From NCBI RefSeq assembly GCF_005116455.1, contig NZ_SWBP01000004.1, forward strand, positions 248,001-312,000: a DNA stretch of 64,000 nt, read 5' to 3'. The notes under the pieces are model-generated. The model worked only from the letters and a program-made list of their open reading frames with translations. It searched no databases and was not told the origin of the DNA. The stretch is from Pedobacter cryophilus. GTDB taxonomy: Bacteria; Bacteroidota; Bacteroidia; Sphingobacteriales; Sphingobacteriaceae. Positions 7,096 to 58,870 of the stretch are shown one piece after another; the first letter of the stretch is position 1; each line of letters opens with the position of its first letter. A program made the translations under genes and the position numbers.

Positions 7096-7174
7096 AATCT
7101 TAAAACTATTGGTCTTATTTTTTTCTTAAGATTCTCTAAATGTTTTCAAAAAAGGCTTCTTGGTTGTACTAAGC

Positions 7175-7237
7175 ACATTTAGACCCTTATTTGAGTACGC
7201 ATAGACACCCCTTTTTCTCATCTTGTGTTCATATTTG
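7175..7237 (+). promoter_or_regulatory. Shared regulon promoter, copy 1 (upstream of susC1)
   Basis: ACATTTAGACCCTTA at 7175-7189 is identical in three places in the window. TAGACACC at 7202 repeats the TAGACCC half-site of 7180 exactly 22 bp later. A CATATTTG box lies at 7230-7237, close to the Bacteroidetes -7 consensus TAnnTTTG. The susC1 ATG is 56 bases further on. Two direct half-sites two helical turns apart fit a dimeric AraC-type domain such as that of the HTCS encoded just upstream. Binding is inferred. Confidence 0.7.
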
Positions 7238-7293
7238 TATCGTTATCATCCAATAGATAACTAACCAATTAATAATTAACCAAACCGATTAAA

Positions 7294-10200
7294 ATGAAAA
7301 AACCTTACGAAAAGAAATTTTTTGTGCGAAATCTTTTCAGTAATTGCTTCAAAAATGCGTTCCTCGCATTTTTATGTTTGATGAGCTCTCAAGCATTTTC
7401 ACAACAAACAGTAATTACCGGAACAGTAAAAGATCAAGCAGGTGTAACCTTACCTGGTGTAAGTGTGTTGCTCAAAAACACAACAACAGGTACTATCACC
7501 AACGAGTCTGGTGCGTTTAGCATCAAAGTACCCAATTCACAAGCTATATTAGTTTTTAGGTATTTAGGTTTTGATCCACTAGAAAGAACAGTTGGTGCAA
7601 ACAGCACCCTTGCTGTTGTAATGTTAGAGTCAACCAATAGCCTTACCGAAGTAATTGTAGTAGGTTACGGTGAGCAAAAAAAATCTACACTTACCGGCGC
7701 AATTGCTACAGTAAATACTAAAGAAATTCTTAAATCTCCAACTTCTAATGTAACCAATAGTTTAGTAGGTAGAGTAACTGGTCTTACAGCTGTTCAAAGT
7801 GGCGGTCAACCAGGAAATAATGCTGCAACCATTAGTATTCGTGGAGCTGCAACTTACGGTAATACGGCAGCCATTGTTATTGTAGATGGGATAGAGCGTT
7901 CTAGCTTTGGAGACATAGATCCAAATGAAATAGAATCTGTTTCTGTATTAAAAGATGCTTCTTCTACCGCAATTTTCGGTATTAAAGGTGCAAATGGGGT
8001 AATTATAGTTACTACACGTTCTGGTAAAGAAGGTAAACCAAAAATCAGCTACAGCGGAAACACCAGTATGCAAACTTATACAGGCATCCCAAAAGCTTTG
8101 AGTGCCTATGACAATGCTTTTTTAATAAATGAGGCCAACAGAAATGATGGCAGAGCAGAAACATGGAGAGCAGACGAGTTACAAAAATTTAAAGATGGGT
8201 CTGATCCTTATGGCTACCCAGATGTAAACTGGTTTGAAGAAGTTACTCGTAAAAGCTATTTGCAAACACAACATAATGTGAATGTAAGTGGGGGAACTAA
8301 ACTTATTAAATACTTTACATCTGTAGGTTATTTATTTGAAGATGGTATTTTTAAAGAACTTGATTCTCCTTATGGTATTAGAACTACTCCATCTTATACC
8401 AGATATAATTTTCGTTCTAATTTAGATTTAAACCTTACTAAAAATTTACAAGTAAGTGTTCGTTTAGGTGGGCGTTTAGGTAAACGCTATCAGCCGTCTG
8501 GTTTAGGCGGAAATGCATTCGCTTATGATAACGTAGAGGGAATGATTTCAAGGATTTTACAAACTCCATCTTTCGCCTTTCCTATTACTTTAGCTGATGG
8601 CAGAATTGCTCAAAATCCAGATGTAGGAACTAATATTTGGAATCCTTTAGCCGTATTAACTCGCTGGGGAACCAGAAATGACGATGCCAACACCATTGAA
8701 AGTAATTTTAATGTGAATTATAAATTAGATGGCATTACAAAAGGCTTATCATTTAAAGGCATTTTTGGTTACGATTCTTATTTCACCAGCAATATGAGAA
8801 GAAACGCCAATTGGGCAGCTTATATTCAAGATAGAACAACAGGAGTAGTAACTTTAGATCCTGGTGCTAGAAATATAAATGAGCCTTTAGGGGGTTTTAT
8901 ATCTACCAGTAGTGGTAATATCAGTTCTAATCTACAACTGGGCTTTAACTATGCCAGAAGTTTTGGAAAACATAATTTTTCTGGAGTTTTATTAGCTACC
9001 AGGCAATTAAATCAACAAGAGGGTACAGGGCTTAATGCGGCTCCAAGAGCGGTAGAAGGTATTGTGAGTAGAAGTACTTATAATTTTAACGAGAAGTATT
9101 TTGTTGAATTTAACGCCGCTTATAATGGTTCAGAAGCTTTTGCTCCGGGGTATCAATATGGTTTTTTTCCAGCGGTATCTGGAGGTTGGAATATTTCAAG
9201 AGAAAATTTTCTGAAAGATGTTACTTGGATAGATAACCTTAAAATAAGAGGTTCTTATGGTCAGGTGGGTAATGATGGTTTAACTAACGCTAATCGTTTC
9301 TTATTCTTATCAGATTATAATGTGCAAAATGGGGGCGCTGTTTTTGGTCTTCCAAATTCAAGCGTAAGTTCTCCTATTGTAGTGGTTACAGGTAATAGTG
9401 AAGGTAACCAATTAGTAACCTGGGAAACGGGTACCAAAAGAAACATTGGTTTTGAAAGTAGATTCTTTAAAAATTCATTAGAATTTATTGTAGATCTATT
9501 TGATGAAACCAGATCGGGAATTTTAACACAGAAAAATTCGGGTCAGGTAATATACGGCCTCACTTACCCTGCATTAAACATAGGTGAAGTATATAACAAA
9601 GGCTACGAAGCCGAATTAAATTACAGAAATAGAGTTGGAGCTTTTAATTACAGCTTAAACACCCAAATATCTTTTGCCAGAAACAAAATCATTAGCAGAG
9701 ATGAACCCATCAGCACTCCAGCTAACAAATTACAAGCCGGTAATAGGGTAGGTCAATTTTACGGCTTAACATCTTTAGGTTTTTACACTTCACAAGCAGA
9801 TATTGATGCTTATCTTCCTACTACCATTCCAGGCGTAAGAATTCCGGGCGATTTAAAGTATAAAGATATTGATGGCGACGGAGTAATTACTGTAGATGAT
9901 ACCTCTCCAATAGGTTTTTCTAGAACTCCAGAATACACTTACAGCGTTGCACCAACTTTATCTTGGAAAGGAATAAGCTTATCTGTTTTATTCCAAGGGG
10001 TAGCTAATGTTAGCTCTGATTATATTTTGGCCGAGAATAATAACGGAGCTCAAATGTATGAATTCCAATTAGAAAGATGGACGCCAGAAACTGCTGCAAC
10101 TGCAACATGGCCAGCGCTACACTCAAGAACAGTATCAAGTGGAAACTATCGCTTAAACGATTTTACGCTACAAAACGCGGCTTATTTAAAAGTTAGAAAT

Positions 10201-10416
10201 GCAGAGTTAGCTTGGAACTTGCCTCAAAAATGGGTGAAATCATTAAAGTTGAATTCATTAAGAGTAGCACTAAGCGGACAAAATTTATATACATGGACAA
10301 AATTTAAATTCTATGTAGATCCAGAAAATGTAAATACTTCATTTACAAACTTCTCCAGACAGTCGGTTTACCCTACCTCTAGGATCTATAATCTTGGTTT
10401 AAATGTTACCCTTTAA
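7294..10416 (+). CDS. SusC/RagA-family TonB-dependent outer membrane transporter (first)
   Basis: This 1040-residue outer membrane beta-barrel imports oligosaccharides using TonB energy. After a long signal peptide ending AFSQQ comes a carboxypeptidase-regulatory-like domain (ITGTVKDQAGVTLPGVSV). The TonB-interacting segment and plug follow (VIVVGYGEQKKSTLTGAI, then the SVLKDASSTAIFGIKGANG block typical of SusC). The rest is barrel, ending in NLGLNVTL. A SusD gene follows at once, with its start 10 bases past this stop, and a second SusC/SusD pair comes next. Tandem pairs beside GH10 genes are the hallmark of conserved Bacteroidetes xylan loci. A shared regulon promoter lies upstream. Confidence 0.95.
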   Translation: MKKPYEKKFFVRNLFSNCFKNAFLAFLCLMSSQAFSQQTVITGTVKDQAGVTLPGVSVLLKNTTTGTITNESGAFSIKVPNSQAILVFRYLGFDPLERTVGANSTLAVVMLESTNSLTEVIVVGYGEQKKSTLTGAIATVNTKEILKSPTSNVTNSLVGRVTGLTAVQSGGQPGNNAATISIRGAATYGNTAAIVIVDGIERSSFGDIDPNEIESVSVLKDASSTAIFGIKGANGVIIVTTRSGKEGKPKISYSGNTSMQTYTGIPKALSAYDNAFLINEANRNDGRAETWRADELQKFKDGSDPYGYPDVNWFEEVTRKSYLQTQHNVNVSGGTKLIKYFTSVGYLFEDGIFKELDSPYGIRTTPSYTRYNFRSNLDLNLTKNLQVSVRLGGRLGKRYQPSGLGGNAFAYDNVEGMISRILQTPSFAFPITLADGRIAQNPDVGTNIWNPLAVLTRWGTRNDDANTIESNFNVNYKLDGITKGLSFKGIFGYDSYFTSNMRRNANWAAYIQDRTTGVVTLDPGARNINEPLGGFISTSSGNISSNLQLGFNYARSFGKHNFSGVLLATRQLNQQEGTGLNAAPRAVEGIVSRSTYNFNEKYFVEFNAAYNGSEAFAPGYQYGFFPAVSGGWNISRENFLKDVTWIDNLKIRGSYGQVGNDGLTNANRFLFLSDYNVQNGGAVFGLPNSSVSSPIVVVTGNSEGNQLVTWETGTKRNIGFESRFFKNSLEFIVDLFDETRSGILTQKNSGQVIYGLTYPALNIGEVYNKGYEAELNYRNRVGAFNYSLNTQISFARNKIISRDEPISTPANKLQAGNRVGQFYGLTSLGFYTSQADIDAYLPTTIPGVRIPGDLKYKDIDGDGVITVDDTSPIGFSRTPEYTYSVAPTLSWKGISLSVLFQGVANVSSDYILAENNNGAQMYEFQLERWTPETAATATWPALHSRTVSSGNYRLNDFTLQNAAYLKVRNAELAWNLPQKWVKSLKLNSLRVALSGQNLYTWTKFKFYVDPENVNTSFTNFSRQSVYPTSRIYNLGLNVTL

Positions 10417-10426
10417 ACATAATTTC

Positions 10427-12151
10427 ATGAAAACGATAAAACAAATTATTTTTTTAACTGCAGTAGTTTTTTTGGCTGCATCTTGTAAAAAAGATTTTTT
10501 AGATAAAGCACCCAGTGTAAATTTACCTGAGGAGAAAGTATTCTCAGACCCAATTCTTGCGGTTCAATATGCAGATAACGCTTATAATTTTTTAGTAAAT
10601 GATTATGCCCGTTTTAATACTCATAGAGGAATTACTGGCCAAGCTGCAGATGAAGCAGTTACAGGTAATAACGAAGGGTCTATCAATACCTTAACACAAG
10701 GAACCTACCATGCCCACTCAGATAATTTTGGCACCAATGATATTTCTTATGTATATGCCAGATCTTATGCAGGGATTAGAATTGCAAATGTGATGCTATC
10801 TAAAATAGACGGCGTAAACTGGCCAGCCATTAATAGTCCTAGAGATAGAGTAGAAGGCGAAATGCATTTTGTTAGAGCCTTACTTTATTTTGAATTGATT
10901 AAAAGATTTGGCGGCGTGGTGCTAATAGACCAACGTTTAGAAGCTAACGGAGAGAATGATTTCCCTAGAAATTCTTATCAAGAATGTGTAGATTTTATTT
11001 TGAAAGATTTAGATGCTGCCGATGCTTTATTGCCACTCAATTATAATGCAACTCTTGCCATTAATAACGGAAGAGCAACTGTAGGAGCATCAAAAGCATT
11101 AAGATCAAGACTGTTATTATATGCAGCAAGTAAACTAAATAACGAAACTAATGATTTAAATAAATGGAAGCTTGCTGCCGATGCAGCCAAAGCGGTGATG
11201 GACTTAAATGAATATTCTTTACAATCAACTTATGAAGATATTCTTAATGTACCCACATCAACAGAATACATTATGACCAAAGTGAGAGGCCCCAGAGCTC
11301 CAGACGGAATGATGTTAGATTTTGTAATGTCACCAGGTTCTGGAGGCGCACAAGGTCAGTTAAATCCAACCCAAAACCATGTGGATTTATATGATATGTT
11401 AACTACCGGCAGACCAATAACAGATCCTCTTTCTGGTTATGACGCTACCAAGCCTTATGTTGATAGAGATCCAAGATTAAAAGCAAACGTACTTTATAAT
11501 GATGTACAGTGGCAAGGAGTTGGGGTAAAAATAGAAACTTGGTCTCAAACCTCTTCTACCGGCGTAAAAACTTTTGGAAAAGATTACAGAGAAAATAATC
11601 CTAATTATACCGCAACAAGGTATTACTGCCGTAAATTATGGCCAGAACCTTATGTGAGAAGCTTACCAAATAATAGAGCTTTGCTTAATTATATCTATTT
11701 CAGATATGCCGAGATTTTATTGAATTATGCTGAAGCTCAAAATGAATTTTCTGGTCCGGATGCGAGCATTTTAAATGCTTTAAACTTAATTAGAACCAGA
11801 GCCGGGATGCCGGTTTTTCAAACTACCAATGCAAGCGGAGCAGGTTATATAGCCAATAATAAAGACGATTTTAGAATTAGAATTAGAAATGAAAGAGCAG
11901 TAGAATTAGCTTTTGAAGATGCCAGATGGTATGATATTCAGAGATGGAAAGTGGGGCCAGAAATAGTTGCAAAACCTATGTATGGAATGGATGTAGTAAA
12001 AAACACCAACGGAAGCTTTACCTACACTAAAGTGTTATTACCAATAGCTATGCAAAAGGTTTTTCTAGATTATATGCATCGTTATCCAATTCCTCGTAAT
12101 GAAGTATTTAAAAGTAAAGGAAAATTGATTCAAAATACGGGTTGGGAATAA
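10427..12151 (+). CDS. SusD/RagB-family surface glycan-binding lipoprotein (first)
   Basis: This 574-residue lipoprotein caps the SusC channel and captures glycan at the cell surface. ATG 10427 is preferred over the upstream in-frame ATG at 10403, because it starts a clean lipoprotein signal (MKTIKQIIFL..., LAASC, lipidated Cys20) and avoids overlapping susC1. The Cys is followed by KKDFLDKAP, the usual SusD opening. The TPR-like helical body contains VRALLYFELIKRFGGV and the C-terminal RNERAVELAFEDARWYDIQRWK block, both family signatures. It is co-transcribed with the SusC gene before it. Confidence 0.95.
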   Translation: MKTIKQIIFLTAVVFLAASCKKDFLDKAPSVNLPEEKVFSDPILAVQYADNAYNFLVNDYARFNTHRGITGQAADEAVTGNNEGSINTLTQGTYHAHSDNFGTNDISYVYARSYAGIRIANVMLSKIDGVNWPAINSPRDRVEGEMHFVRALLYFELIKRFGGVVLIDQRLEANGENDFPRNSYQECVDFILKDLDAADALLPLNYNATLAINNGRATVGASKALRSRLLLYAASKLNNETNDLNKWKLAADAAKAVMDLNEYSLQSTYEDILNVPTSTEYIMTKVRGPRAPDGMMLDFVMSPGSGGAQGQLNPTQNHVDLYDMLTTGRPITDPLSGYDATKPYVDRDPRLKANVLYNDVQWQGVGVKIETWSQTSSTGVKTFGKDYRENNPNYTATRYYCRKLWPEPYVRSLPNNRALLNYIYFRYAEILLNYAEAQNEFSGPDASILNALNLIRTRAGMPVFQTTNASGAGYIANNKDDFRIRIRNERAVELAFEDARWYDIQRWKVGPEIVAKPMYGMDVVKNTNGSFTYTKVLLPIAMQKVFLDYMHRYPIPRNEVFKSKGKLIQNTGWE

Positions 12152-12194
12152 AGCTTATGCTTCGTTCAAATAATTAATCATTAATTCTAGAAAC

Positions 12195-15100
12195 ATGAAA
12201 TCAACACTTAAAATATATATATTCTTAATGCTAGCACTCTCTGCATTAAGTAGTAAAGCGCAAGAGCCAGATAGCAAAGTCACTATATCTGGTACAGTAA
12301 AAGATAATCAAGGAAATGCAGTAGAAGGGGTAAGTATTTTTATTCAAGAAAAAGCATCAAACAATTTAACTGCTAAAGACGGTAAGTTTTCAATAAGTGT
12401 AACCGGTAATGATGTTATTTACTTTAAAAAGCAAGGTTATAATTTAGTTCAAAAGCCCGCTTTAGAATTAGATGGTGCTGTGGTTGTTTTAACATTAAGT
12501 TTAATTGATGCTGGTGATGATGACGATGTTTATATCCCATTCGGAATCAGAAAAAAGCGTTCAGTTTCTGCATCCATAAGCACCATAAAAGGCAGTGAAT
12601 TGCCTCAGTTACCACTTTCAACATTAACTAACTCATTATCTGGGAGGTTACCAGGTCTTTATATCAAACAAAGCGGTACTCGCCCCGGTACAGATGATGC
12701 CTCTTTCTTAATTAGAGGAAGGTCATCTTATAACAGCGGTCAGGCACCTTTGGTATTGGTAGATGGAGTAGAACGAGATTTTGTAAATATGGATTTGAAT
12801 GAGATAGAAGGAATAAGCGTATTAAAAGATGCGGCTTCTTTATCTTGGTATGGAATGAGTGCTGCAAACGGAGTAGTTTATGTAACTACAAAACGTGGTG
12901 ATGCGGTAAAAACCAAAGTTACTTTTGATGCTCAGGGTGGTGCACAAACTCCTATTAATATTACAAGCCCATTAAATTCTTTTCAATTTGCTAATCAGTC
13001 TAATCAACATGCTTTAAATAGTGGTTTACCACTTGTTTATGATCAAACAGCATTAGATGCTTATCAATCTGGTTCAGATTTGGTGAACTATCCTAGTAAT
13101 AATTTTGTTGACCGTTTTATTAAAGATGTGGCCCCAGTTCAAAGATATGTGGCTACCGTAAGTGGAGGTAATGCTTTTGCTCGTTATTTTACTTTAGTGA
13201 GTTTGTTTAAACAAGATGGTTTATATAGAGGTGCAGAAACGCCAGATTATAACACCAATTCAAATTACAAAAGATATAATTTTAGAACCAATCTTGATCT
13301 TCATATCAATAAAAGTTTAGATGTTAAACTAGATGTAGGCGGCAGGGTAGAAAACTTGCAGTATAATACCGCAGGCAACGGAACTTTTTTAAACACTATT
13401 TATAACACTCCATCAAATGCTTTCCCACTTTTAAATCAAGACGGAACATTTGGAGGCAGCTCTTTATTTAGAAATAATCCATTAGCCATGTTAACTGCTA
13501 ACGGAAATAATAATGATCTTTCTCGTACTTTATTAGCTACCGTAGATGTGAAGCATAAGTTAGATTTTATTTTAAAAGGCTTATCTGCTAATGCATTTTA
13601 TACCTATGATATTACCAGTGCTTATACTTATGGGTTTAACCAAAACTATGAAATTTATTCTTCTACAGGTGGTGGAACTTTTGAGAGATTTGGTAACAGC
13701 ACACCTTTACAATATAAAAGCAGTGATTTTAATAACAATGTAAGAGGAAACGAGTTTTGGGCAGGTTTAGATTATGACCGTACGTTTGGTTTACACGATG
13801 TAAAATTTTCTACTAGATTATTAAGATCTGTTAATGCAGCACCAGGTAGACTAGATTATAAAAGACAAGCCATCACCAACCGTTTATCTTACAGTTTTAA
13901 CAATCGCTATTTTGCTGATGTTGTTGCGGCTTATGCAGGTTCAGAGAATTTTGCACCAGGCAAACGTTACGGAGTTTTCCCAGCAGTTTCTGCCGGTTGG
14001 ATTTTATCAGAAGAAAATTTCTTAAACAAAGTGAAAGCGGTTAATTATTTTAAACTACGTGGTTCTTATGGCATAGTAGGAAATGATGATTTATTTGCCA
14101 ATCGTTTTTCATTTAATAATTATTTTACCAGAAGTAGTGGCGGTTATAATTTTGGAACAAGCTTTGGTGCTGCTAATGGCTCGGCAGAACTTACCTTGGG
14201 TAACCCTAATTTAACATGGGAGAAAGCTAAAAAAGCAAGCATAGGCTTTGATGGGCAATTTTTTAATCAATCTTTACAATTAGCTTTTGATCTTTTTCAT
14301 GAAAACAGAACCAACCTTTTAACTACTGATATTTTACCAAGTATTATTGGCCAGTCTGTATCTCTTATCAACAACGGGGAGGCTCAGTATAAAGGTTTTG
14401 AAATGGCTATGGGTTACAACAAAACTTTTAATAAAGTAACTGTTGGCATCAATGGAAATTTCACAAAATCTAAAAGTAAAATCATTTCTATTAGTGAAGA
14501 AATTGGTTTGCCAGCATATCAAAGCCAAAAAGGATTTCAAATTGGAAGCGTAATACAAGGAGGAGATTTTATCCGTAGATTTTTAGTTTCTGATGGCCTT
14601 TTTCAAACTCAAGCAGAAATTGATGCAGCTCCAGTACAAAGATTTTCTGGTTTGGTACGCCCAGGTGATATCCGTTACAAAGATCAAAACAACGATAATA
14701 TAATTGATAACCTAGATTTTATAAACACAAATTATTCAGATGTGCCAGATACTTATTATGGTTTTGGTACAAATGTTAAATATTCAAATTTTGATTTATC
14801 GGTTCAATTTCAAGGGGTAGCAGGTAGAACCATCCAAATCAATAACTTAATTAATTCTACTAGCGCATCAGCAAATTATGTGAATCAGTTTAGTACAGAA
14901 AGTTGGACTCCAGCAACAGCCGCAACAGCTAAATACCCTTTAATTGCTTTAAACAACAGAGGCAACAATACCCAAAATTCTGATTTTTGGTTACGTTCTG
15001 GCGATTTTCTGAAATTGAAAAATTTAGAAGTGGGTTATTCATTGTCTTCTAGTGCGGTTAAAAAACTAAAAGTAAATGCAATGAGATTTTATGTAAGCGG

Positions 15101-15227
15101 ATTTAACTTGTTAACATTTAGCAAGGTAAGTGAATTAGGAATAGATCCTGAAATTCCAACAGCAGGATTTAATTCTGATTATCCATACATCACCACTTTT
15201 TCAGCCGGTGTAAACCTTAAGTTTTAA
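12195..15227 (+). CDS. SusC/RagA-family TonB-dependent outer membrane transporter (second)
   Basis: This 1010-residue transporter has a signal peptide (ending SSKAQ), then a regulatory-like domain (ISGTVKDNQGNAVEGVSI). An acidic stretch GDDDDVYIPFG sits where a TonB box is expected. The plug contains RGRSSYNSGQAPLVLVDGVE and ISVLKDAASLSWYGMSAANG, and the barrel ends in FSAGVNLKF. It is a diverged paralogue of the first SusC rather than a recent copy. It lies 43 bases after susD1 and 33 bases before susD2 in one transcript. In studied xylan loci the two pairs handle different chain lengths or decorations; whether that holds here is unknown. Confidence 0.94.
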   Translation: MKSTLKIYIFLMLALSALSSKAQEPDSKVTISGTVKDNQGNAVEGVSIFIQEKASNNLTAKDGKFSISVTGNDVIYFKKQGYNLVQKPALELDGAVVVLTLSLIDAGDDDDVYIPFGIRKKRSVSASISTIKGSELPQLPLSTLTNSLSGRLPGLYIKQSGTRPGTDDASFLIRGRSSYNSGQAPLVLVDGVERDFVNMDLNEIEGISVLKDAASLSWYGMSAANGVVYVTTKRGDAVKTKVTFDAQGGAQTPINITSPLNSFQFANQSNQHALNSGLPLVYDQTALDAYQSGSDLVNYPSNNFVDRFIKDVAPVQRYVATVSGGNAFARYFTLVSLFKQDGLYRGAETPDYNTNSNYKRYNFRTNLDLHINKSLDVKLDVGGRVENLQYNTAGNGTFLNTIYNTPSNAFPLLNQDGTFGGSSLFRNNPLAMLTANGNNNDLSRTLLATVDVKHKLDFILKGLSANAFYTYDITSAYTYGFNQNYEIYSSTGGGTFERFGNSTPLQYKSSDFNNNVRGNEFWAGLDYDRTFGLHDVKFSTRLLRSVNAAPGRLDYKRQAITNRLSYSFNNRYFADVVAAYAGSENFAPGKRYGVFPAVSAGWILSEENFLNKVKAVNYFKLRGSYGIVGNDDLFANRFSFNNYFTRSSGGYNFGTSFGAANGSAELTLGNPNLTWEKAKKASIGFDGQFFNQSLQLAFDLFHENRTNLLTTDILPSIIGQSVSLINNGEAQYKGFEMAMGYNKTFNKVTVGINGNFTKSKSKIISISEEIGLPAYQSQKGFQIGSVIQGGDFIRRFLVSDGLFQTQAEIDAAPVQRFSGLVRPGDIRYKDQNNDNIIDNLDFINTNYSDVPDTYYGFGTNVKYSNFDLSVQFQGVAGRTIQINNLINSTSASANYVNQFSTESWTPATAATAKYPLIALNNRGNNTQNSDFWLRSGDFLKLKNLEVGYSLSSSAVKKLKVNAMRFYVSGFNLLTFSKVSELGIDPEIPTAGFNSDYPYITTFSAGVNLKF

Positions 15228-15260
15228 TTAGACGATTAAGAAATTTTAAGCTAAAAAATC

Positions 15261-16925: not shown

Positions 16926-16992
16926 TATGATTTTTAAAGCTGTTACAGATTAGATAATTTTATCTTTTGATACACAGCTTAAACAATAAATT

Positions 16993-17034
16993 AAATTGGT
17001 GGTGTGGAAATTATTTTCTGCGCCGCCAATTTTT
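16993..17034 (+). terminator. Probable terminator after the second SusD gene
   Basis: AAATTGGTGGTG at 16993-17004 pairs with CGCCGCCAAT plus TT at 17021-17032, using two G-T wobbles. It is followed by a short T run, 68 bases past the susD2 stop. Confidence 0.6.
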
Positions 17035-17129
17035 ATTATGATTCAACAGTATAAATAATGCAAATTAGCCTAATTATTAACTGTTTTACCTAATGTTCTA
17101 ATAGGTTGTTTGCAACCAAAATTTATTTT

Positions 17130-18971: not shown

Positions 18972-18975
18972 AAGC

Positions 18976-19013
18976 TTAATAAATCTCGGTTCATTTGAAC
19001 CGAGATTTATTAA
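18976..19013. terminator. Strong inverted repeat after the GH2 gene
   Basis: A perfect 17-bp stem (left arm 18976-18992 containing AATCTCGGTTC, right arm 18997-19013) has an ATTT loop and begins five bases past the GH2 stop codon. It has no long T run on the plus strand. A Rho-independent or processing terminator is likely. Confidence 0.65.
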
Positions 19014-19176
19014 TTAAAAATGATTCCTCATTTTACAAAGCCTTGTAAAGCCAACTAGAATTCTATAAATCATCATTTTAAAAAATGGATATCTATTTTT
19101 TAAAAGTTAAAAATTGTTCAAATCTTCTTTAACAAGTCGGTTTATTCTAAAAACCTATCAAATAAGCCTAAATAAT

Positions 19177-19240
19177 ACATTTAGACCCTTAATTGCGCAC
19201 ATATAGACGCCCCGTTTTTAAAGCTTACTCATCATATTTG
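19177..19240 (+). promoter_or_regulatory. Shared regulon promoter, copy 2 (upstream of the T9SS protein gene)
   Basis: ACATTTAGACCCTTA lies at 19177-19191. The second half-site TAGACGCC at 19204 is 22 bp after TAGACCC at 19182, and CATATTTG lies at 19233-19240. The start codon is 102 bases beyond the box. The rest of the 370-base gap between 18972 and 19342 holds only this and the preceding hairpin. Confidence 0.7.
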
Positions 19241-19342
19241 GTAAATCGTTAACCAATTGCGGTCATTATTAAACTGTTTTTAAAGCCTCCAAAAGTTTTA
19301 AAAACAATTAGAAACCAGATTATAAACTTTAAAAAATTAAAC

Positions 19343-21025
19343 ATGAAAAAAAAATTACTATTTATTTGTGCAAGCTTAGTGGCTAGTAGCTTTGTGGCAT
19401 TAGCTCAATTTACCGCTGGAAATGTAGTGGTTTACCGTTATGGTGATGGAGGTACTTATACCAACGGTCAATTAGCGCCAACTTTTTTAGATGAATATAC
19501 TGCTGCAGGTGTGCTAGTAAAAACACATGGTGTTCCGTCTGTTACTAATGGTTTAAATAAAGGGTTAACTGGATTACTTAAGTTAGGTTCCGGATTATAT
19601 CAACAAGAAGGAATGTCAACTCTTTCTCAGGATGGAAAGTACATTACCATTTTTGGATACAATGCCGCAGTAGGCGCTACGGTTCCAACTACAGCTGATG
19701 GATTAGTAGTAGGCGTTATTTCTGCAGATGGAAAAATAAATACAACAACAACGCTCTCTAATGCTGCAACAGTTGGTTTGGGAGCTCCCCGTTCAGCAGT
19801 AGTTGATGGCAATAATATTTGGGCAAACGGATTTCAAAATGGAGTTCAATATGCAACTTTAGGTGCCACTACTTCTATACAAGTTAATACATCTACTCAA
19901 AATTCGCCAAGAACCTTAGGCATTTTTAATGATAATTTATATGCACCAACAGGGGCTAGTGATAAATTAGCTTTTCAATCACCTCTACCAACATCAGCAG
20001 CAGCATTTCAAACAAAAATTATGAGTTCGGTTTCAACAGGTGTTAATCCAACTACTAATCAAATTGTTGCATTTCCTATAGGAAATAGAATACTTATTTA
20101 CACCATAGATGATGGCTCTACAACAGGTAATACGATTAGAAGATATAATACCAATTCAGCTGGTGATACGTGGTTAACTTTAGGAACAGCAATTTCTAGT
20201 TCTCCTCAAACAGATTTAGCAAAAAGTATTACTGGTGTTTCTACTGTAGTTGGTGCCAATACAGTGATAAAGTTATATGTTACTACATGGGGAGATTCTG
20301 GAGCAGGAGTTGTAAGCTCTAAATTATTAACTTTTACAGATACTTATGTTACACCAACCACTAATCCATCTACACCAACTACTAGCGCTTTAACTACTTT
20401 AGCTACCGCACCAGCTGGTACAGTTTTTAGAAGCGTAACTATGGCTCCTCAAGGTAGTGCAGCTGTAGGAACAGGCGTTTTGCCAGTTTCATTAACCTCT
20501 TTTGGAGGTCAAAAACAAGGTGATGCTATTCAATTAAATTGGACTACTGCTTCAGAAAAAAACAATTCTCATTTTGATATTTTACGTTCTATAGATGGAA
20601 AAAAATTCCTGAACATTGGAAAAGTAGCTGGAAAAGGAAATTCTGATGCAAAAGTTGATTATACATTTTTAGATCAAAACCCATTAGGAGGAACCAATTA
20701 TTATCAGTTAAATCAGGTTGATTTTGATGGTAAATCTTCAAAATCGGATGTGAAAGCGATAGAATCTGGTATTAAAACCACAGAATTAACGGTTTATGCA
20801 AACAAGAACACTAATGAAGTTGGCGTTTCTATATTCTCTGCAAATTCAACCACAGCAGATTTCAAAATCTTTGATATTTCTGGTCGTGAGCTTTTAAACA
20901 AATCTATTTCTTTAAATAAAGGATATAATTCATTTAATTTACCATTGCAATTAGGCAACGGCGTTTTTGTAACTACCTTAAGAACTCCGGTTGAAACCAT
21001 CAGCAAGAAATTTATCAATCAATAA
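19343..21025 (+). CDS. Secreted protein of unknown function with a type IX secretion C-terminal sorting domain
   Basis: This 560-residue protein has a signal peptide ending ALAQ at residue 22. A repetitive beta-rich region follows (residues about 25-385), opening FTAGNVVVYRYGDGG and FLDEYTAAG, with recurrent LSQDGKYITIFGY and RSAVVDGNNIWANG blocks that suggest a beta-propeller. A linker leads to a VLPVSLTSFGGQKQGDAIQL module. The last 80 residues are a type A sorting domain (ADFKIFDISGRELL, NLPLQLGNGVFVTTLR). I know of no function for this kind of propeller protein. It has its own copy of the xylan-locus promoter and a terminator on each side, so it appears to be a single-gene member of the regulon. 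A surface xylan-binding role is only an inference. Confidence 0.8.
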   Translation: MKKKLLFICASLVASSFVALAQFTAGNVVVYRYGDGGTYTNGQLAPTFLDEYTAAGVLVKTHGVPSVTNGLNKGLTGLLKLGSGLYQQEGMSTLSQDGKYITIFGYNAAVGATVPTTADGLVVGVISADGKINTTTTLSNAATVGLGAPRSAVVDGNNIWANGFQNGVQYATLGATTSIQVNTSTQNSPRTLGIFNDNLYAPTGASDKLAFQSPLPTSAAAFQTKIMSSVSTGVNPTTNQIVAFPIGNRILIYTIDDGSTTGNTIRRYNTNSAGDTWLTLGTAISSSPQTDLAKSITGVSTVVGANTVIKLYVTTWGDSGAGVVSSKLLTFTDTYVTPTTNPSTPTTSALTTLATAPAGTVFRSVTMAPQGSAAVGTGVLPVSLTSFGGQKQGDAIQLNWTTASEKNNSHFDILRSIDGKKFLNIGKVAGKGNSDAKVDYTFLDQNPLGGTNYYQLNQVDFDGKSSKSDVKAIESGIKTTELTVYANKNTNEVGVSIFSANSTTADFKIFDISGRELLNKSISLNKGYNSFNLPLQLGNGVFVTTLRTPVETISKKFINQ

Positions 21026-21037
21026 TAGCCATACCAT

Positions 21038-21074
21038 ATCTCTAACTGCATGAAGTAGTTAGAGATTTTTTTTA
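21038..21074 (+). terminator. Intrinsic terminator after the T9SS protein gene
   Basis: ATCTCTAACT at 21038-21047 pairs perfectly with AGTTAGAGAT at 21057-21066 and runs into a T tract. It ends only 10 bases before the next start codon (21085). Confidence 0.85.
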
Positions 21075-21084
21075 ATTCCGATAC

Positions 21085-23514: not shown

Positions 23515-23534
23515 ATAAGATTGAACCCATAAAA

Positions 23535-25730
23535 ATGAAATTACTTTTTTTATCATCATGTGTATTTTGGTTTTCGGTACAGGCTTTTGCTCAGAAAATT
23601 CCAGATTATAAGAATAAAAATTTATCAATAGATAAACGTGTTGAAGACCTTATTCAAAGAATGACTTTGGAAGAAAAGGTACTTCAACTCAACCAATGGG
23701 CTTATGGTAGAAATACCAATGTGAATAACATTGAAGAAAAAAAAAGAGCGGTTAGACCAGAGATTGGTTCCCTTATTTTTCAAAGTGTAAATCCTGTTTT
23801 TAGAAATCAGGTTCAAAGAAAAGCAATAGAAGAATCTCGCTTAGGAATTCCCATGTTAATGGGTTTTGATATTATACATGGCTGCCGCACAGTTTATCCA
23901 ATTCCCTTAGCCCAAGCTTGTTCGTTTAACCCAGATTTAGCCACTCAAGCTTGCGCAGTTGCAGCAAAAGAATCAAAATTATCTGGTTTAGATTGGACTT
24001 TTTCTCCCATGGTAGATGTGGCAAGAGACGCCCGTTGGGGCAGGGTTGCCGAAGGTTATGGGGAAGATACTTATCTAAATTCGGTGTTTTCTGCGGCATC
24101 TGTTAAAGGATATCAAGGAAAAAGTTTAGCAGATCCTTACTCAATTGCGGCCTGTTTAAAACATTATATTGGTTACAGTTTATCAGAAGGTGGTAGAGAT
24201 TATCACTCAAGTGATGTATCGCCACAAACACTTTGGGAAACTTTTATGCCTCCGTTTGAAGCTGGCGTAAAAGCTGGTGCAGCTACTTTAATGAGCGGTT
24301 TTAATGATATCAGCGGTATTCCGGCATCAGCTAATTACTACACGCTAACTGATGTTTTAAAAAAGCAATGGAAACATACAGGCTTTGTAGTTTCTGATTG
24401 GGGTTCAGTCGCAAATTTAATTCCTCAAGGTTTTGCTGCCGATAAAAAGGAAGCCGCATACAAATCTTTTATGGCCGGTGTAGAGATGGATATGGTGGAT
24501 AACCTTTATACAGAATATTTGGCTGAGTTGGTGAATGAGAAAAAAATTCCGATGAGTAAGATTGACGATGCGGTAAAACGTGTTTTGCAATTGAAGTTTC
24601 AGTTAGGATTGTTTGATAAACCTTATGTAGTAGAACTTCCAGAAAGCGAAAGATACTTTAAACCAGAGGATGTAGCTATTGCCGCTAAAATGGCCGAAGA
24701 ATCTATGGTTTTGTTGAAAAATAATAATGCAACACTTCCATTAAATAGTAATGTAAAGCAAATCGCATTAATTGGTCCAATGGTTAAAGACTCTGTAAAT
24801 ATGTTGGGGTCTTGGGCCGAACATGGAATTCCATCAACTGTAGAAACCATATACGCTGGTTTGCAAAAAGAGTTTAAAAATAAAGCCAATATTAATTATG
24901 CTTTAGGATGTGATTTTGATGGTAATGATGAATCTGGTTTTGAAGCCGCATTAGAAGCCGCTAAAAACGTCGATGTAATTATTGCTTGTATTGGCGAAAG
25001 AAAAAAATGGAGTGGAGAAAATGCCTCTCGTTCATCTATTGCTTTGCCAGCTATACAAGAACGTTTAATAGAAGCCTTAAAAAAAACAGGCAAACCATTA
25101 ATCTTGGTTTTATCTAACGGTCGTCCGCTAGAATTAGTTCGTTTAGAGCCACTTGCCGATGCTATTTTAGAAATATGGCAACCAGGCATTGCCGGAGGAA
25201 CCCCTTTAGCGCAAATCATTTCGGGGAAAATAAATCCTTCAGGTAAATTGGCCATTACTTTTCCATTAACTACCGGTCAAATTCCAGTTTACTATAATAG
25301 CAGGCAGCCAGCCCGACCAACTTTAGGGCGTTATCAAGATATCAGCACACAGCCAAAATATTGGTTCGGACATGGATTAAGCTATACCAATTTTGCTTAC
25401 GGCGATATTAAACTATCCAATACAAAAATTAGAAAAACTGAAAAGTTAACTGCCGAAATTGAGATCACCAACTCGGGTGCAATGACGGGTAAGGAAACCG
25501 TTTTATGGTATGTTTCAGATCCATCAGCTTCCATCACCAGACCTTTAAAAGAATTAAAATACTTTGAAAAGAAGGAATTAAAAATTGGAGAAAAAAGGAA
25601 ATTCGTTTTTGAAATAGACCCGCTCAGAGATTTAAGTTTTCCGGATGGAACCGGAAAAAGACATTTAGAAGCAGGTGATTTTTATTTAATGGTGAATAAC
25701 CAGAAAGTAAAATTTGAGCTGGTAGATTAA
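23535..25730 (+). CDS. GH3 family glycosidase (second)
   Basis: This 731-residue enzyme has signal peptide ending AFAQK. The GH3 barrel contains MVDVARDARWGRVAEGYGEDTY, CLKHYIGYSLSEGGRDY and nucleophile Asp288 in FVVSDWGSVANL. The second domain has MVLLKNNNATLPL and VIIACIGERKKWSGE, and a FnIII-like domain ends the protein. The MGFDIIHGCRTVYPIPLAQ block is typical of the BglX-like periplasmic beta-glucosidase branch, a different branch from the GH3 just upstream. Twenty bases separate the two genes. Together they could remove different terminal sugars from imported oligosaccharides. Confidence 0.9.
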   Translation: MKLLFLSSCVFWFSVQAFAQKIPDYKNKNLSIDKRVEDLIQRMTLEEKVLQLNQWAYGRNTNVNNIEEKKRAVRPEIGSLIFQSVNPVFRNQVQRKAIEESRLGIPMLMGFDIIHGCRTVYPIPLAQACSFNPDLATQACAVAAKESKLSGLDWTFSPMVDVARDARWGRVAEGYGEDTYLNSVFSAASVKGYQGKSLADPYSIAACLKHYIGYSLSEGGRDYHSSDVSPQTLWETFMPPFEAGVKAGAATLMSGFNDISGIPASANYYTLTDVLKKQWKHTGFVVSDWGSVANLIPQGFAADKKEAAYKSFMAGVEMDMVDNLYTEYLAELVNEKKIPMSKIDDAVKRVLQLKFQLGLFDKPYVVELPESERYFKPEDVAIAAKMAEESMVLLKNNNATLPLNSNVKQIALIGPMVKDSVNMLGSWAEHGIPSTVETIYAGLQKEFKNKANINYALGCDFDGNDESGFEAALEAAKNVDVIIACIGERKKWSGENASRSSIALPAIQERLIEALKKTGKPLILVLSNGRPLELVRLEPLADAILEIWQPGIAGGTPLAQIISGKINPSGKLAITFPLTTGQIPVYYNSRQPARPTLGRYQDISTQPKYWFGHGLSYTNFAYGDIKLSNTKIRKTEKLTAEIEITNSGAMTGKETVLWYVSDPSASITRPLKELKYFEKKELKIGEKRKFVFEIDPLRDLSFPDGTGKRHLEAGDFYLMVNNQKVKFELVD

Positions 25731-25782
25731 TAAGTTCATTTATGAAACAGATACTTCATTATACAATCAATACCTAATTAAT

Positions 25783-27222
25783 ATGAAAAGGATACACCAA
25801 ATTTTCTTGATGTTTTTAGTGATAGGAACCCTGTCTTGCAAAAAATCTAAAGCTCAAGTTGAAACTAAAATAGCGCAACCCACTAAGAGCTATCACCAAG
25901 TAAAAGCCAGAACAAATGCTGATAGTCCAAATTGGAGTACTTACACCGCAAAAACCATTGATAGGTTGCCTGGCTTTACTTACACTAAAGACCCAGAAGT
26001 AAATAGTTATGGCTCTTGGAAAGTAGAAAAATCTGCTGGAAGTGGTTTTTTTAGGATAGAAAAAAGAGCGAATCGGTGGTGGATTGTTGACCCAGAAGGT
26101 TATCCGTTTATACATAAAGGTGTAGCTGTTTACAGGCCGGGAACCTCTGAAAGACAAATAGCGGCTGTAAAAACAAAATATGGGTCAACTAGCAACTGGT
26201 TAAAACAAGAAAGTCAGTATTTAAAAGACAACGGATTTAATGGTTTAGGCGCTTGGTCTGATGTTGATTTGGTTAGAACAGCTCAAAATCCATTAGTGTA
26301 CACCATTATTGTAAGCCCAATGGGCAGCTATAAATCTCAGCATATTAAAAATTATGGAGGCAAATATGAAGTAGCTGGTTGGCAAGGTTACCGCTATGAT
26401 TTAGCCATGGTTTTTGACCCCGAATTTGATATTTATGTAGAAAAAGAAGTTTCTAAAATTGCAAAATACGCAAATGATAAAAGCCTGTTGGGTTATTTTA
26501 CTGATAATGAATTACCATGGAAAAACGATGCTTTAGATAGGCATTTAAATTTTTTAGGTAAAACCGAAGCAGGTTATATTGCCGCTAAAAAATGGTTAGA
26601 TGACCGTAAAGGAAAAGATGCTTCTATAACAGATGTAACTGCCGAAGATCGTTTGGCTTTTACCGGGTTTTATTTTGAAACTTATCTTAAAAAGGTAACT
26701 GCAGCTATAAAAAAATACGATCCTAACCACCTTTACTTAGGTTGTCGTTTTAATCAAAGTGCCGAAGAATTAAACAATCCAGAAATGTTTAAAGTTGCAG
26801 GTAAGTACATTGATATAATTTCTATAAACCATTATAGAAAGTGGGAGCCAGATCAAACCATAATGGCTAACTGGGCAAACTGGTCGGGCAAACCTTTTTT
26901 AATTACAGAATGGTACACCAAAGGCGAGGATTCTGGCTTACCAAATAAAACTGGTGCCGGGTGGAATGTTCCTACTCAGGCAGATCGTGGTTATTTCTAC
27001 CAAAATTTCACCATAGAGTTGTTAAAAAGTAAAGCTTGTGTAGGCTGGAATTGGTTTACTTATCAGGATAATGACCCACTTAATTTAAACACCGATCCTT
27101 CTAATCGTGATTCTAATAAGGGTATTGTAGATTCAGATTTTAAGCCTTATCAACCTTTAATGGATAATATTAAAACGCTTAATACCCATTCTTATGAGCT
27201 CATTAAATTTTTAGATAAATAG
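25783..27222 (+). CDS. Lipoprotein glycoside hydrolase of clan GH-A, agarase-like (GH50-related?)
   Basis: This 479-residue lipoprotein has lipobox GTLSC (Cys19). It shows FFRIEKRANRWWIVDPEGYPF then KGVAVYRPGTSERQ, a pattern seen in agarase-like clan GH-A proteins. The candidate acid/base is Glu243 in YFTDNELPW and the nucleophile Glu376 in FLITEWYTKG. Proteins like this are often auto-named beta-agarase, but nothing else here points to agar. Lying between GH3 and isomerase-like genes in a xylan locus, it more likely acts on a xylan-derived or related plant glycan. The true specificity is unknown. Confidence 0.65.
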   Translation: MKRIHQIFLMFLVIGTLSCKKSKAQVETKIAQPTKSYHQVKARTNADSPNWSTYTAKTIDRLPGFTYTKDPEVNSYGSWKVEKSAGSGFFRIEKRANRWWIVDPEGYPFIHKGVAVYRPGTSERQIAAVKTKYGSTSNWLKQESQYLKDNGFNGLGAWSDVDLVRTAQNPLVYTIIVSPMGSYKSQHIKNYGGKYEVAGWQGYRYDLAMVFDPEFDIYVEKEVSKIAKYANDKSLLGYFTDNELPWKNDALDRHLNFLGKTEAGYIAAKKWLDDRKGKDASITDVTAEDRLAFTGFYFETYLKKVTAAIKKYDPNHLYLGCRFNQSAEELNNPEMFKVAGKYIDIISINHYRKWEPDQTIMANWANWSGKPFLITEWYTKGEDSGLPNKTGAGWNVPTQADRGYFYQNFTIELLKSKACVGWNWFTYQDNDPLNLNTDPSNRDSNKGIVDSDFKPYQPLMDNIKTLNTHSYELIKFLDK

Positions 27223-27238
27223 TATTAAAATAAATATC

Positions 27239-28165
27239 ATGCGAGTTATTTTCATAATATGTTTCTTGTTCTTAAGTAGTCAGTCATCATTCGCTCAAAA
27301 AGCTAAAAAAGGCAAAAATCCATCACCAATCATATTATCATTAAATGCTTATTCTTTTAATGATTTGTTAATGGCAAGAGATAAAAGAGACAATCAGCAA
27401 TTGTACACCTTTTTTAACTTGTTAGATTGGTGCAAAAGCCAAAATATTGAAGCTTTAGATGCAACTGGTTATTTTTTTCCAACCTATCCTAAAGTGCCTT
27501 CAGATGAGTATATCTATAAATTAAAAAATAGAGCTAAAGAATTAGGGATAACAATTAGTGGAACAGGAATTCGTAATGATTTTGCATCTCCAGACCCTGC
27601 TGTAAGGGCAGCCGGAGTGGCTCTTGCAAAAGAATGGATATTAGTTGCTGAAAAATTAGACGCACCAGTTTTAAGATTATTTGCTGGCGAAATTCCAAAA
27701 GGATATGAAAACAGATGGGATGAAGTTGCTGGTTGGATGATTGAATCGTACAAAGAATGTGCTGCTTTTGCTGAAAAACATGGGGTTATCATCGGAATAC
27801 AAAACCATGGAGATATGTTGCAAACAGCAGAGCAATGTATAAAAGTAATTAAAGGCGTTAACTCTAAAGCAGCAGGAATTATAGTAGATACAGGCAATTT
27901 TAAAACAGAAAATCCTTATGCAGATATTGAGGCTATGGTACCTTATGCAGTAAACTGGCAAATTAAGGAAAGTGCTTTTGGTATTGGTAACCCGATAGAA
28001 ACAGATTATGTTAAGATTATGGAAATCCTAAAAAGACAAAATTATAAAGGCTTTTTGCCCATAGAAACCATTTTAGTGAGAGGCGTTCCTTATGATCCTT
28101 TTGAGTTAGTACCCGCTATGTTTGATAAATTAAGAAGTGCTCAAAAAAAGGTTTTTAAAAACTAA
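27239..28165 (+). CDS. Secreted xylose isomerase-like TIM-barrel protein (sugar phosphate isomerase/epimerase family)
   Basis: This 308-residue protein has a signal peptide (MRVIFIICFLFLSSQ, ending SFAQ). The barrel holds the family metal-site pattern: EALDATGYF, LRLFAGEIP, IGIQNHGDM (His), GIIVDTGNF (Asp) and FLPIETI near the end. Members of this AP_endonuc_2 fold include isomerases and epimerases, and many PUL-linked exported ones have no proven reaction. Export to the periplasm rules out an ordinary sugar-phosphate substrate. A free keto or aldo sugar, or an oxidised intermediate, is more likely. It sits 16 bases after the previous gene and 4 bases before the next. Confidence 0.75.
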   Translation: MRVIFIICFLFLSSQSSFAQKAKKGKNPSPIILSLNAYSFNDLLMARDKRDNQQLYTFFNLLDWCKSQNIEALDATGYFFPTYPKVPSDEYIYKLKNRAKELGITISGTGIRNDFASPDPAVRAAGVALAKEWILVAEKLDAPVLRLFAGEIPKGYENRWDEVAGWMIESYKECAAFAEKHGVIIGIQNHGDMLQTAEQCIKVIKGVNSKAAGIIVDTGNFKTENPYADIEAMVPYAVNWQIKESAFGIGNPIETDYVKIMEILKRQNYKGFLPIETILVRGVPYDPFELVPAMFDKLRSAQKKVFKN

Positions 28166-28169
28166 GCTG

Positions 28170-29465
28170 ATGTTTAAATTCATAATCACAACTTTAATTT
28201 TAGCGATTTCTGTATGTTCATTATCGGCTCAAATAAAAATCAGTCCATACCTAATGGGGCAAAATGCTTGGGGAAGGGGAGATATTTTTAGAGTTCAAAA
28301 AGAAGTTGAACAAGTAAAATACCAAACCATTAGAATTGGGGGAAATGGTTATGAAAATAGTGGTTTTATAACAAATCAAGCTATTAAATATATTGATTAC
28401 GCTCGTTCTGTTGGTGCCGAGCCATTTTTGCAAATGCCTCGCCAATTAAGAAATGATAATAAAGCCTATGAAGCAGTCAAATATTTAAATGGAGAGAAAG
28501 GAAAGAATATTAAATTTTGGAGTATTGGTAATGAGCCTGATCATAGAAATCAATTATCTTCTCCGGAAGATGTGTATGATTATTTCACCAAAATAAGTAC
28601 TCAAATAAAAAAGTACGACCCTAAAGCTAAAGTAATGGGTTTTGATTTAGCTTCTTATACCCTAAAATACATGGATAGATTTTTAGGTGGCGATTTAGAT
28701 TTAACAGGTAAAATACCAGGGACTGATGTTTATTATTTAGATGGAGTTACTTTTCATAACTACAAATTTTTAGATATTTCTCGCTTTGAAGCGGATGTTA
28801 AACTACTAAAAACGAAGCTTGCTAAATTTAACGCAGCCAGACCAAAAGAGAATCAACTCACTTGGTCTATTACAGAGTTTAATACCCATTGGATAGTTGA
28901 TCCAAAATTAGAAGAACGCTACCAACCTTATACCTTTCATAACGGGCAAATATTTGCCGAAATGTATGATTTAGGAATGAGAGAGGGAGCCTTTACCATT
29001 TGCCCATGGAGTATTTTAGAGGGTGGTGCAGATAGAGAAGGAACAGACTTAAGTATGTTTGATTTAGTAAATGGTAAATATGAGAAACGCTCTAATTATT
29101 ACCATACCCAAATGCTGGCTCAAAACATTAAAAAGCAATATTTAAGTCATCAAGACAATAGCAAAGATTTGGTGATTATCCCCATGGGTGATAAATCAGG
29201 AATAGCCATTATGATATTAAACAAGAGTAAAACTCAGCCAATTAATTATACGCTGCAACTCAACCATAAAAAACTAAAAGTTGATGATGTTCTTATTAAT
29301 GTGAATGCAAAAACGAATAAAAAAGTAACAGATTCCATTTCAGCATCATGTACTCAAATGTTAGTGTTTAATTCTAAAGGAAACTTGATTAAAAAATATA
29401 CCTATTCCTCTAAAAATGCAGATGCTAAATCTGAACCCGTTCTTGTCCTTTATAAAGGTAATTAA
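28170..29465 (+). CDS. Secreted putative clan GH-A glycoside hydrolase, family uncertain
   Basis: This is a 431-residue protein from ATG 28170 (MFKFIITTLILAI, signal ending LSAQ). A GTG 33 bases upstream would overlap the previous gene and is rejected. The barrel shows YQTIRIGGNGYE, FWSIGNEPDH (candidate acid/base Glu122), YYLDGVTFHNYKF and SITEFNTHW (candidate nucleophile Glu236), then a short beta domain at the C-terminus. This is the layout of clan GH-A families such as GH39, GH44 and GH51, but I cannot place it in one. It is the last gene of the GH3-led chain. A new regulon promoter lies directly downstream. Confidence 0.6.
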   Translation: MFKFIITTLILAISVCSLSAQIKISPYLMGQNAWGRGDIFRVQKEVEQVKYQTIRIGGNGYENSGFITNQAIKYIDYARSVGAEPFLQMPRQLRNDNKAYEAVKYLNGEKGKNIKFWSIGNEPDHRNQLSSPEDVYDYFTKISTQIKKYDPKAKVMGFDLASYTLKYMDRFLGGDLDLTGKIPGTDVYYLDGVTFHNYKFLDISRFEADVKLLKTKLAKFNAARPKENQLTWSITEFNTHWIVDPKLEERYQPYTFHNGQIFAEMYDLGMREGAFTICPWSILEGGADREGTDLSMFDLVNGKYEKRSNYYHTQMLAQNIKKQYLSHQDNSKDLVIIPMGDKSGIAIMILNKSKTQPINYTLQLNHKKLKVDDVLINVNAKTNKKVTDSISASCTQMLVFNSKGNLIKKYTYSSKNADAKSEPVLVLYKGN

Positions 29466-29518
29466 CAGGCCTATTTTCTTGAATTATTTAACACGAAAAA
29501 CGTTTAAAACCTCAAAGT

Positions 29519-29581
29519 ACATTTAGACCCTTAATTAAGGATAAACAGACGCCTCCAAATACTTAAAAGCAAGCATATTTG
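29519..29581 (+). promoter_or_regulatory. Shared regulon promoter, copy 3 (upstream of the first GH10 gene)
   Basis: ACATTTAGACCCTTA lies at 29519-29533. The second half-site CAGACGCC at 29546 is 22 bp after TAGACCC at 29524, and CATATTTG lies at 29574-29581. Downstream sequence GTATATCGCTATCATC resembles that after copy 1. The GH10 start is 133 bases past the box. Confidence 0.7.
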
Positions 29582-29714
29582 TATATCGCTATCATCTAAA
29601 AGATAGAGAAATTGAATACCAATTATATTTTATTAGAGTTGATTTGCTTTTTTGGTTGAAATAAACCCCGTAAAAAGAAAGTGTTTTCTCCTCTTAAAAC
29701 TTAAAAAAATTAAA

Positions 29715-58720: not shown

Positions 58721-58870
58721 CCAAATGAGGCTAAAATGCTAATTTATTTTCTCATCCAAAGCCTCCATCAGTCCATGAACACCACTTTCCTGGGCAAGAT
58801 TATCTGAAATGGCATAGAGATAATTGTTTTAAAGGATAGATTCTAAAATTTAATACTTTCTTTATTTCTG

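Follow-up and report, generated by a model that had tools for sequence, protein, structure and literature searches.

Why does the same 15-nucleotide word stand ahead of three separate genes in one gene cluster of Pedobacter cryophilus, and which regulator reads it? The question is raised by a stretch of 64,000 nucleotides of contig NZ_SWBP01000004.1 (hereafter the window), which corresponds to C11:248001-312000 of the genome, here G000 (~4 Mb, 3.99-Mb); other G and L codes denote the genomes and loci of relatives. The cluster resembles a polysaccharide utilization locus (PUL), and its gene content fits xylan, a substrate that we infer from the encoded enzymes. A sequence-only reading had proposed that three promoters of one architecture define a xylan regulon, with the hybrid two-component system protein (HTCS) encoded at 2839 as the candidate regulator. 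In our view, the three sites are very probably operators of this HTCS (2839-7095), which would switch on four transcription units, an explanation built on sequence comparison.

The anatomy of the sites, their rarity in the genome, their recurrence in relatives and their co-occurrence with the HTCS were all computed directly. The word ACATTTAGACCCTTA is exact at 7175, 19177 and 29519, ahead of susC1, of a gene encoding a protein sorted by the type IX secretion system (T9SS) and of the first gene of glycoside hydrolase (GH) family 10, respectively, and in all three sites a second AGAC lies 22 bp from the first, as had been read by eye. For the following box, CATATTTG, the distance had been put at 28, 29 and 28 bp, one too many: counted from the first base of the second AGAC, the box begins at 27, 28 and 27 bp in sites 1, 2 and 3, and the bases lying between AGAC and box number 23, 24 and 23. 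Summarized from the relatives described below, the half-sites read GTACATTTARACCCY and GTACATATGNACRCC, about 15 bp each and arranged as a direct repeat (Table 1).

Base composition predicts 0.0003 exact copies of ACATTTAGACCCTTA in the window and 0.017 in the genome; three were found, all of them in the window. When up to two mismatches are allowed, the genome holds 16 matches (three exact and 13 at two mismatches) versus 19 for the reversed-pattern control, and the inexact copies are therefore background. Likewise, a loose scan with TTTAGACC-N17-AGAC at up to two mismatches was uninformative (273 matches versus 514 for the reversed control). A scan of the genome with model R2, built from 12 sites all belonging to other genomes and none to G000, places the three promoters and one more on top (41.4, 40.2, 38.3 and 28.2 bits, E 5e-10 to 8e-6), followed by noise beginning at 15.3 bits (E 0.09), with 150 of 5314 first-look candidates scored. 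Model R1, which comprises 16 aligned sites including these four, scores them at 41-51 bits and the next candidate at 14.8 (150 of 5670 scored). The additional site, first met in a repeat search, is a diverged operator with a CATATTTG box at G000:C11:236063-236129 (L039:8063-8129), about 12 kb outside the window and upstream of a GH3 gene at C11:236425. The earlier reading, which found no fourth copy by eye, thus holds within the window and fails for the genome, and the regulon, whose three proposed promoters all stand, counts four. The GH3 protein encoded at C11:236425 shares only 31.6% identity with GH3a of the window, and in G011 and G009 a similar site precedes a different GH3, the ortholog of GH3b.

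Orthologs of the HTCS at 56-68% identity are encoded in G009, G011, G013, G017 and G036, of which G017 and G009 are placed in the same genus as G000. A matrix of the three window sites, applied to the loci of G011, G013, G017 and G036, matched susC1 promoters (G013 and G017), T9SS-protein promoters (G011 and G017) and GH10 promoters (G011, G013 and G017), as well as further promoters of the same loci, namely those of GH2, GH3b and one more gene in G011 and of one more gene in G017; in G036, the match precedes the SusC gene that follows the HTCS, which is not the susC1 ortholog (30% identity). The 16 sites align with one 1-base gap column between the proximal half-site and the box, and the 22-bp repeat is present in all 16. 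Where the HTCS is near 50% identity (L105, L106, L107, L110, G056 and G079), the geometry is kept and the half-sites have diverged, as in TTTTACCCC. A search for repeat plus box by self-identity proved weak, the susC1 promoter of G000 scoring 6.8 at 22 bp versus 8.1 at a shifted 24 bp, because the half-sites differ, and the alignment model was used instead. Across 534 upstream regions, we counted 12-bp repeats at distances of 14 to 33 bp, provided that the second copy began 26-33 bp ahead of a box: 11 fall at 22 bp, six at 21 bp and 17 are spread over the other 18 distances. Promoters of the xylan regulon contribute 11 of the 17 repeats at 21-22 bp, two being counted at both distances; among the six outside the regulon (two at 22 bp and four at 21 bp), one lies beside another HTCS of G000 (C11:195.3k, L049). 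Two observations may be added on these relatives. In seven loci (L105, L106, L107, L260, L262, L263 and L264), all from relatives with HTCSs near 50% identity, the bases directly after the box are conserved as roughly CTnnAACCAAATAnTGTATGATG, L107 and L262 being slightly different. At G013:C1:1972791-1985120 (L094, L095), the HTCS, susC1 and susC2 orthologs are each split into two frames and two operators remain, which indicates either a decaying PUL or sequence errors.

The distribution of the operator follows that of the HTCS. In a scan of 90 relatives, matches of at least 26 bits occurred only in G000, G009, G011, G013, G017 and G036, which are the genomes with close HTCS orthologs, and the match in G009 was obtained without G009 in the model. 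Among 399 genomes of the family Sphingobacteriaceae, an operator match (E<=0.001) was found in 20 and an HTCS ortholog (E<=1e-260) in 24, with 12 first-look candidates scored per genome under stricter filters and cut-offs chosen after the list of close orthologs and the results of the 90-relative scan were already visible. Both elements are present in 16 genomes, the operator alone in four, the HTCS alone in eight and neither in 371 (Fisher p 2e-19); when the five training genomes are removed, 15 genomes have a match, 19 have the HTCS and 11 have both (p 1e-13). Setting aside G009, whose contigs are fragmented, we find a site at 85-486 bp from the HTCS match in nine of the ten held-out shared genomes; in the other, G252, the distance is 1742 bp and the HTCS match covers only the C-terminal part of the protein. 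Together with the AraC-type helix-turn-helix (HTH) domain in the protein, this co-occurrence across the 399 genomes supports the HTCS at 2839 as the candidate regulator.

A similar contrast is seen among SusC1 orthologs of at least 60% identity, compared in nine named loci among the best 80. All five with an HTCS (L103, L105, L106, L107 and L110) have the 22-bp repeat and the box, versus none of the four (L104, L108, L109 and L118) without an HTCS match, judged within the locus only, when 600 bp upstream were searched (Fisher p 0.008, with independence limited, L105-L107 being close relatives). As for the neighborhood of these four genes, an ECF (extracytoplasmic function) sigma factor and FecR are encoded directly upstream of the ortholog in L118 (Ferruginibacter), an IclR regulator is encoded upstream in L104 and a LacI regulator about 2.3 kb upstream in L108; no regulator was found in L109, one of whose two genes was tested within only 2.7 kb of upstream sequence. 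The same type of transporter beside IclR, LacI or ECF sigma/FecR looks, from gene order, like a swap of regulator.

Several points weigh against reading the sites as operators of this HTCS. The model matches nothing in eight of the 24 genomes with the HTCS, of which G056 and G079 show a diverged repeat with a box after the HTCS, and the remaining six are G176, G177, G277, G352, G357 and G438. Conversely, four of the 20 genomes with a model match (G008, G042, G276 and G421) have no HTCS at the cut-off used, the match in G008 lying inside a gene and that in G042 being a repeat with a box before another susC. Operator absences in the 399-genome scan are soft, given the 12 candidates per genome and the stricter filters, and in the R2 scan of G000 just 150 first-look candidates were scored. 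Finally, CATATTTG carries a C where the consensus of the -7 box has a T.

The best surviving alternative, which we nevertheless consider improbable, is that another AraC-type regulator reads the operators, for instance one of the five other HTCSs encoded in G000, and that the neighboring HTCS acts elsewhere. In fact, beyond the 5' end of the HTCS at C9:679491-683573 there is a TATAGACCC...TTTAGACC repeat, also of 22 bp (G000:C9:684003-684031, L047), located between the HTCS and an alpha-L-fucosidase gene, and G011 harbors two HTCS orthologs (62% and 57%) within one locus. Yet the C9 site is outside the 31 R2 matches at E<=10 and shows by eye no -7 box at the expected place, and the operator accompanies an HTCS of the 2839 type in 16 of 24 genomes, usually adjoining it.

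The position of the operator relative to the promoter suggests how the HTCS would act. CATATTTG agrees with TAnnTTTG, the -7 box of primary-sigma promoters in Bacteroidota, at five of six defined bases and, across the 16 aligned sites, keeps a fixed place with some substitutions; in G011, G013, G017 and G036, as in G000, the operator is locked to it within 1 bp. Since the -7 box is read as spanning -12 to -5 (PMC9723704), the proximal half-site falls in the -33 place. No TTTG was seen there by eye, the place being occupied by the half-site; a -33 motif is likewise not identifiable in Flavobacterium johnsoniae (PMC7366714), and for this reason the motif does not define promoters throughout the phylum and its absence alone is weak evidence. 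Judged from these distances, the geometry of operator and box is that of a class II activator. We hypothesize that a xylan-derived oligosaccharide, the probable inducer, would be sensed by the periplasmic propeller domain of the HTCS, and that phosphate would then be transferred to its receiver domain. The AraC-type domains would dimerize side by side along a single face of the DNA, on half-sites 22 bp, or two helical turns, apart, and the promoter-proximal monomer in the -33 place may recruit RNA polymerase carrying the primary sigma factor in class II style. Four units would be activated in this way, one starting with susC1D1C2D2 and continuing into the genes behind it, the others being those of the T9SS protein, of GH10 and of the GH3 gene outside the window. 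A simple rule, namely a 22-bp direct repeat, a proximal half-site at -33 and a box at a fixed distance, may thus suffice to read the operator set of one regulator; it singles out genomes with the HTCS that played no part in building it and finds no site where no HTCS is seen in the locus. Such a rule also makes activation by the HTCS testable by spacing mutants.

Two conserved blocks at a fixed spacing before a start also resemble a two-part promoter, and the orthologous SusC of Ferruginibacter L118 stands beside ECF sigma and FecR genes, so that the block might be taken for a promoter read by an alternative (ECF) sigma factor instead of an operator for an activator; we regard this as very unlikely, as the ECF-associated ortholog of L118 lacks such a block, and the block itself is a 22-bp direct repeat ending ahead of a -7 box of the sigma-A type. 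It is hardly credible that the three 15-mers arose by recent duplication of a single leader and have no role in regulation, for although the distal block and the box are perfectly identical among the three sites, the flanking bases differ, the spacing is conserved and the spacer sequence is not, and the arrangement recurs, with altered letters, in promoters of other genomes.

Operators of HTCSs are already known in kind from predictions in Bacteroides, and the xylan set is a well-supported further example in the Sphingobacteriaceae. The motifs predicted there are direct repeats at an average distance of 21 bp, from which it was proposed that two monomers occupy the same side of the DNA at a distance of two turns (Ravcheev et al. 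2013, PMC3878776). The present sites share with them the two-site direct repeat of about 21 bp (22 here), the location before susC/D and glycosidase units near an HTCS with an AraC-type HTH and the recurrence between genomes, and differ in the exact distance, in the letters and in the host family; the fixed distance to the -7 box is a feature of the present sites, which the accessible part of PMC3878776 does not treat for the Bacteroides operators. Receiver-HTH proteins of HTCSs are reported to bind susC-type promoters in vitro (PMC11253607). In Bacteroides xylanisolvens, an insertion mutant of an HTCS gene showed repression of PUL 43 and of part of rPUL 70 (PMC4855328), so that the regulator is also needed for part of a second locus. 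As in that system, one HTCS of a xylan PUL would here control several units with GH10 and tandem susC/D genes; genus and gene content are different, and no operator is given in the accessible part of that report.

In Escherichia coli, the araI1 and araI2 half-sites are spaced by 21 bp, and araI2 overlaps the -35 element. The arrangement proposed here is similar to that of AraC at araI1-araI2, where the proximal of two half-sites recruits RNA polymerase (PMC4760080). Unlike AraC, which is soluble and binds the sugar itself, the Pedobacter regulator is a membrane HTCS with a phosphorelay.

A second feature was noticed downstream of the box. In many promoters of the close set, a predicted RNA hairpin begins at the fifth base after the box, which is +1 if the box lies at -12 to -5. 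Averaged over 22 promoters, the stem score reaches 7.0 at offset 4 and 5.8 at offset 5, compared with 0 to 3.6 at the other offsets. After removal of two near-duplicates, 12 of 20 promoters (11 of 16 in the close set) have a perfect stem of 5 bp or more at offsets 3-5, versus a mean of 2.6 and a maximum of nine in shuffles, none of 2000 being as high. The letters differ between genes and the place is kept; in the T9SS-protein promoters of G000, G011 and G017, both partners differ in two of the five pairs and the loop TAACCAATT is conserved, a result equaled by 57 of 500 shuffles. Weighing against the hairpin, it was spotted by eye and then tested on the same promoters, and none was found in the GH3 promoter of G000 or in the GH3 and GH2 promoters of G011. 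Among held-out promoters, with the matches in G421 and the six HTCS genomes listed above left aside, it appears in one of 14. A first batch of 12 operators, ten with a box in range, gave a stem of 5 bp or more within offsets 3-5 only in G391_10261, beside an HTCS of 65% identity; G009 has five matches, four with a box-like sequence (loosely so for two partial matches), and none of the four has a stem at that place. As a general promoter feature, a hairpin at +1 was not supported, no excess at +1 over the control being seen in the searched stretches of G000 under four definitions of the box (0.104/0.203, n = 67; 0.176/0.194, n = 17; 0.133/0.197, n = 30; 0.132/0.208, n = 38), and boxes before distant susC genes are too few to call (0.400/0.292, n = 20; 0.379/0.328, n = 29; 0.400/0.273, n = 25; 0.250/0.344, n = 16).

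At best, then, the hairpin belongs to a subset of the promoters of one narrow clade. The E. coli example of a 5'-terminal stem-loop from 1992 is reportedly that of ompA. If the Pedobacter hairpin is real, its likeliest function would be the one described in E. coli, where a 5'-terminal stem-loop stabilises mRNA (Emory 1992, cited in PMC7509114). The two are alike in starting at the first nucleotides of the mRNA, and the Pedobacter structure differs in being only predicted, short (5-10 bp) and confined to one regulon of one clade. A two-level control, in which an operator rigidly docked to the promoter is combined with a clade-specific +1 hairpin that selectively stabilises xylan mRNAs or chooses the start, is a tentative and rather doubtful proposal, its odds having been lowered by the absence of stems in the G009 promoters. 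If real, the +1 hairpin would give the expression of PULs a further, post-transcriptional level, and no 5'-terminal hairpin is described for PUL transcripts in the accessible parts of the literature searched. A separate observation on the 5' leaders of G000 concerns the word ACCAATT, which stands upstream of 13 of 101 genes in PUL/HTCS stretches versus eight of 200 genes in background stretches (p 0.007), and in these stretches 15 times in sense and once in antisense orientation.

Table 1. Positions in the window of the HTCS gene, the operators with their boxes and possible hairpins, and the genes that they precede.
Feature	Position	Strand	Basis or remark
HTCS, 1418 aa, proposed operator binder	2839..7095	+	Pfam
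Operator 1, distal half-site GCACATTTAGACCCT	7173..7187	+	
Operator 1, proximal half-site (TACGCATAGACACCC region)	7195..7209	+	22 bp from distal; in -33 place
-7 box CATATTTG, susC1 promoter	7230..7237	+	placed at -12 to -5 after PMC9723704
Possible hairpin GTTATC-8-GATAAC	7242..7261	+	from predicted +1 of susC1 mRNA
susC1, head of susC1-susD1-susC2-susD2	7294..10416	+	ATG 7294; TIGR04056, 884 bits; neighbours by Pfam
Operator 2, distal half-site ATACATTTAGACCCT	19175..19189	+	
Operator 2, proximal half-site (GCACATATAGACGCC region)	19197..19211	+	
-7 box CATATTTG, T9SS-protein promoter	19233..19240	+	
Possible hairpin ATCGT-9-GCGGT, T9SS-protein promoter	19245..19263	+	
T9SS type A sorting-domain protein	19343..21025	+	ATG 19343; TIGR04183, 26.4 bits (cut-off 23)
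Operator 3, distal half-site GTACATTTAGACCCT	29517..29531	+	
Operator 3, proximal half-site GGATAAACAGACGCC	29539..29553	+	
-7 box CATATTTG, GH10 promoter	29574..29581	+	
Possible hairpin with internal mismatch (CTATC-8-GATAG core), GH10 promoter	29586..29609	+	not scored as perfect stem
GH10 gene 1	29715..30812	+	ATG 29715; open reading frame list starts gene at TTG 29652; Pfam PF00331
GH10 gene 2	30969-32258		follows GH10 gene 1

The HTCS reading frame of 1418 aa combines in one chain the Reg_prop and Y_Y_Y domains of a sensor propeller, HisKA, HATPase_c, Response_reg and the AraC-type HTH_18 (Pfam), and its C-terminal 259 aa match PDB 12aw, a chain of 279 aa named hybrid two-component system protein (E 8.9e-60). 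The genes of the locus are ordered as SASA esterase, GH43, HTCS, susC1-susD1-susC2-susD2, GH2, T9SS-sorted protein, GH3 and GH3 in a first part, followed after the second GH3 by one unknown, a xylose isomerase-like TIM barrel, a protein with a weak match to GH44, GH10 and GH10; the region upstream contains GH8, esterases, another GH3 and a GH43-like gene. A literature search for work joining Pedobacter and xylan with both PULs and hybrid two-component systems retrieved no paper. The T9SS type A sorting-domain protein has no Pfam match, and the PUL proteins encoded at 25783-27222 and 28137-29465 have no Pfam match above cut-off and no NCBIfam match, the latter showing the weak GH44-like match. 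Elsewhere in the window, a Flavo-1 RNA (RF01705) is found at 58860-58942 with 56.5 bits.

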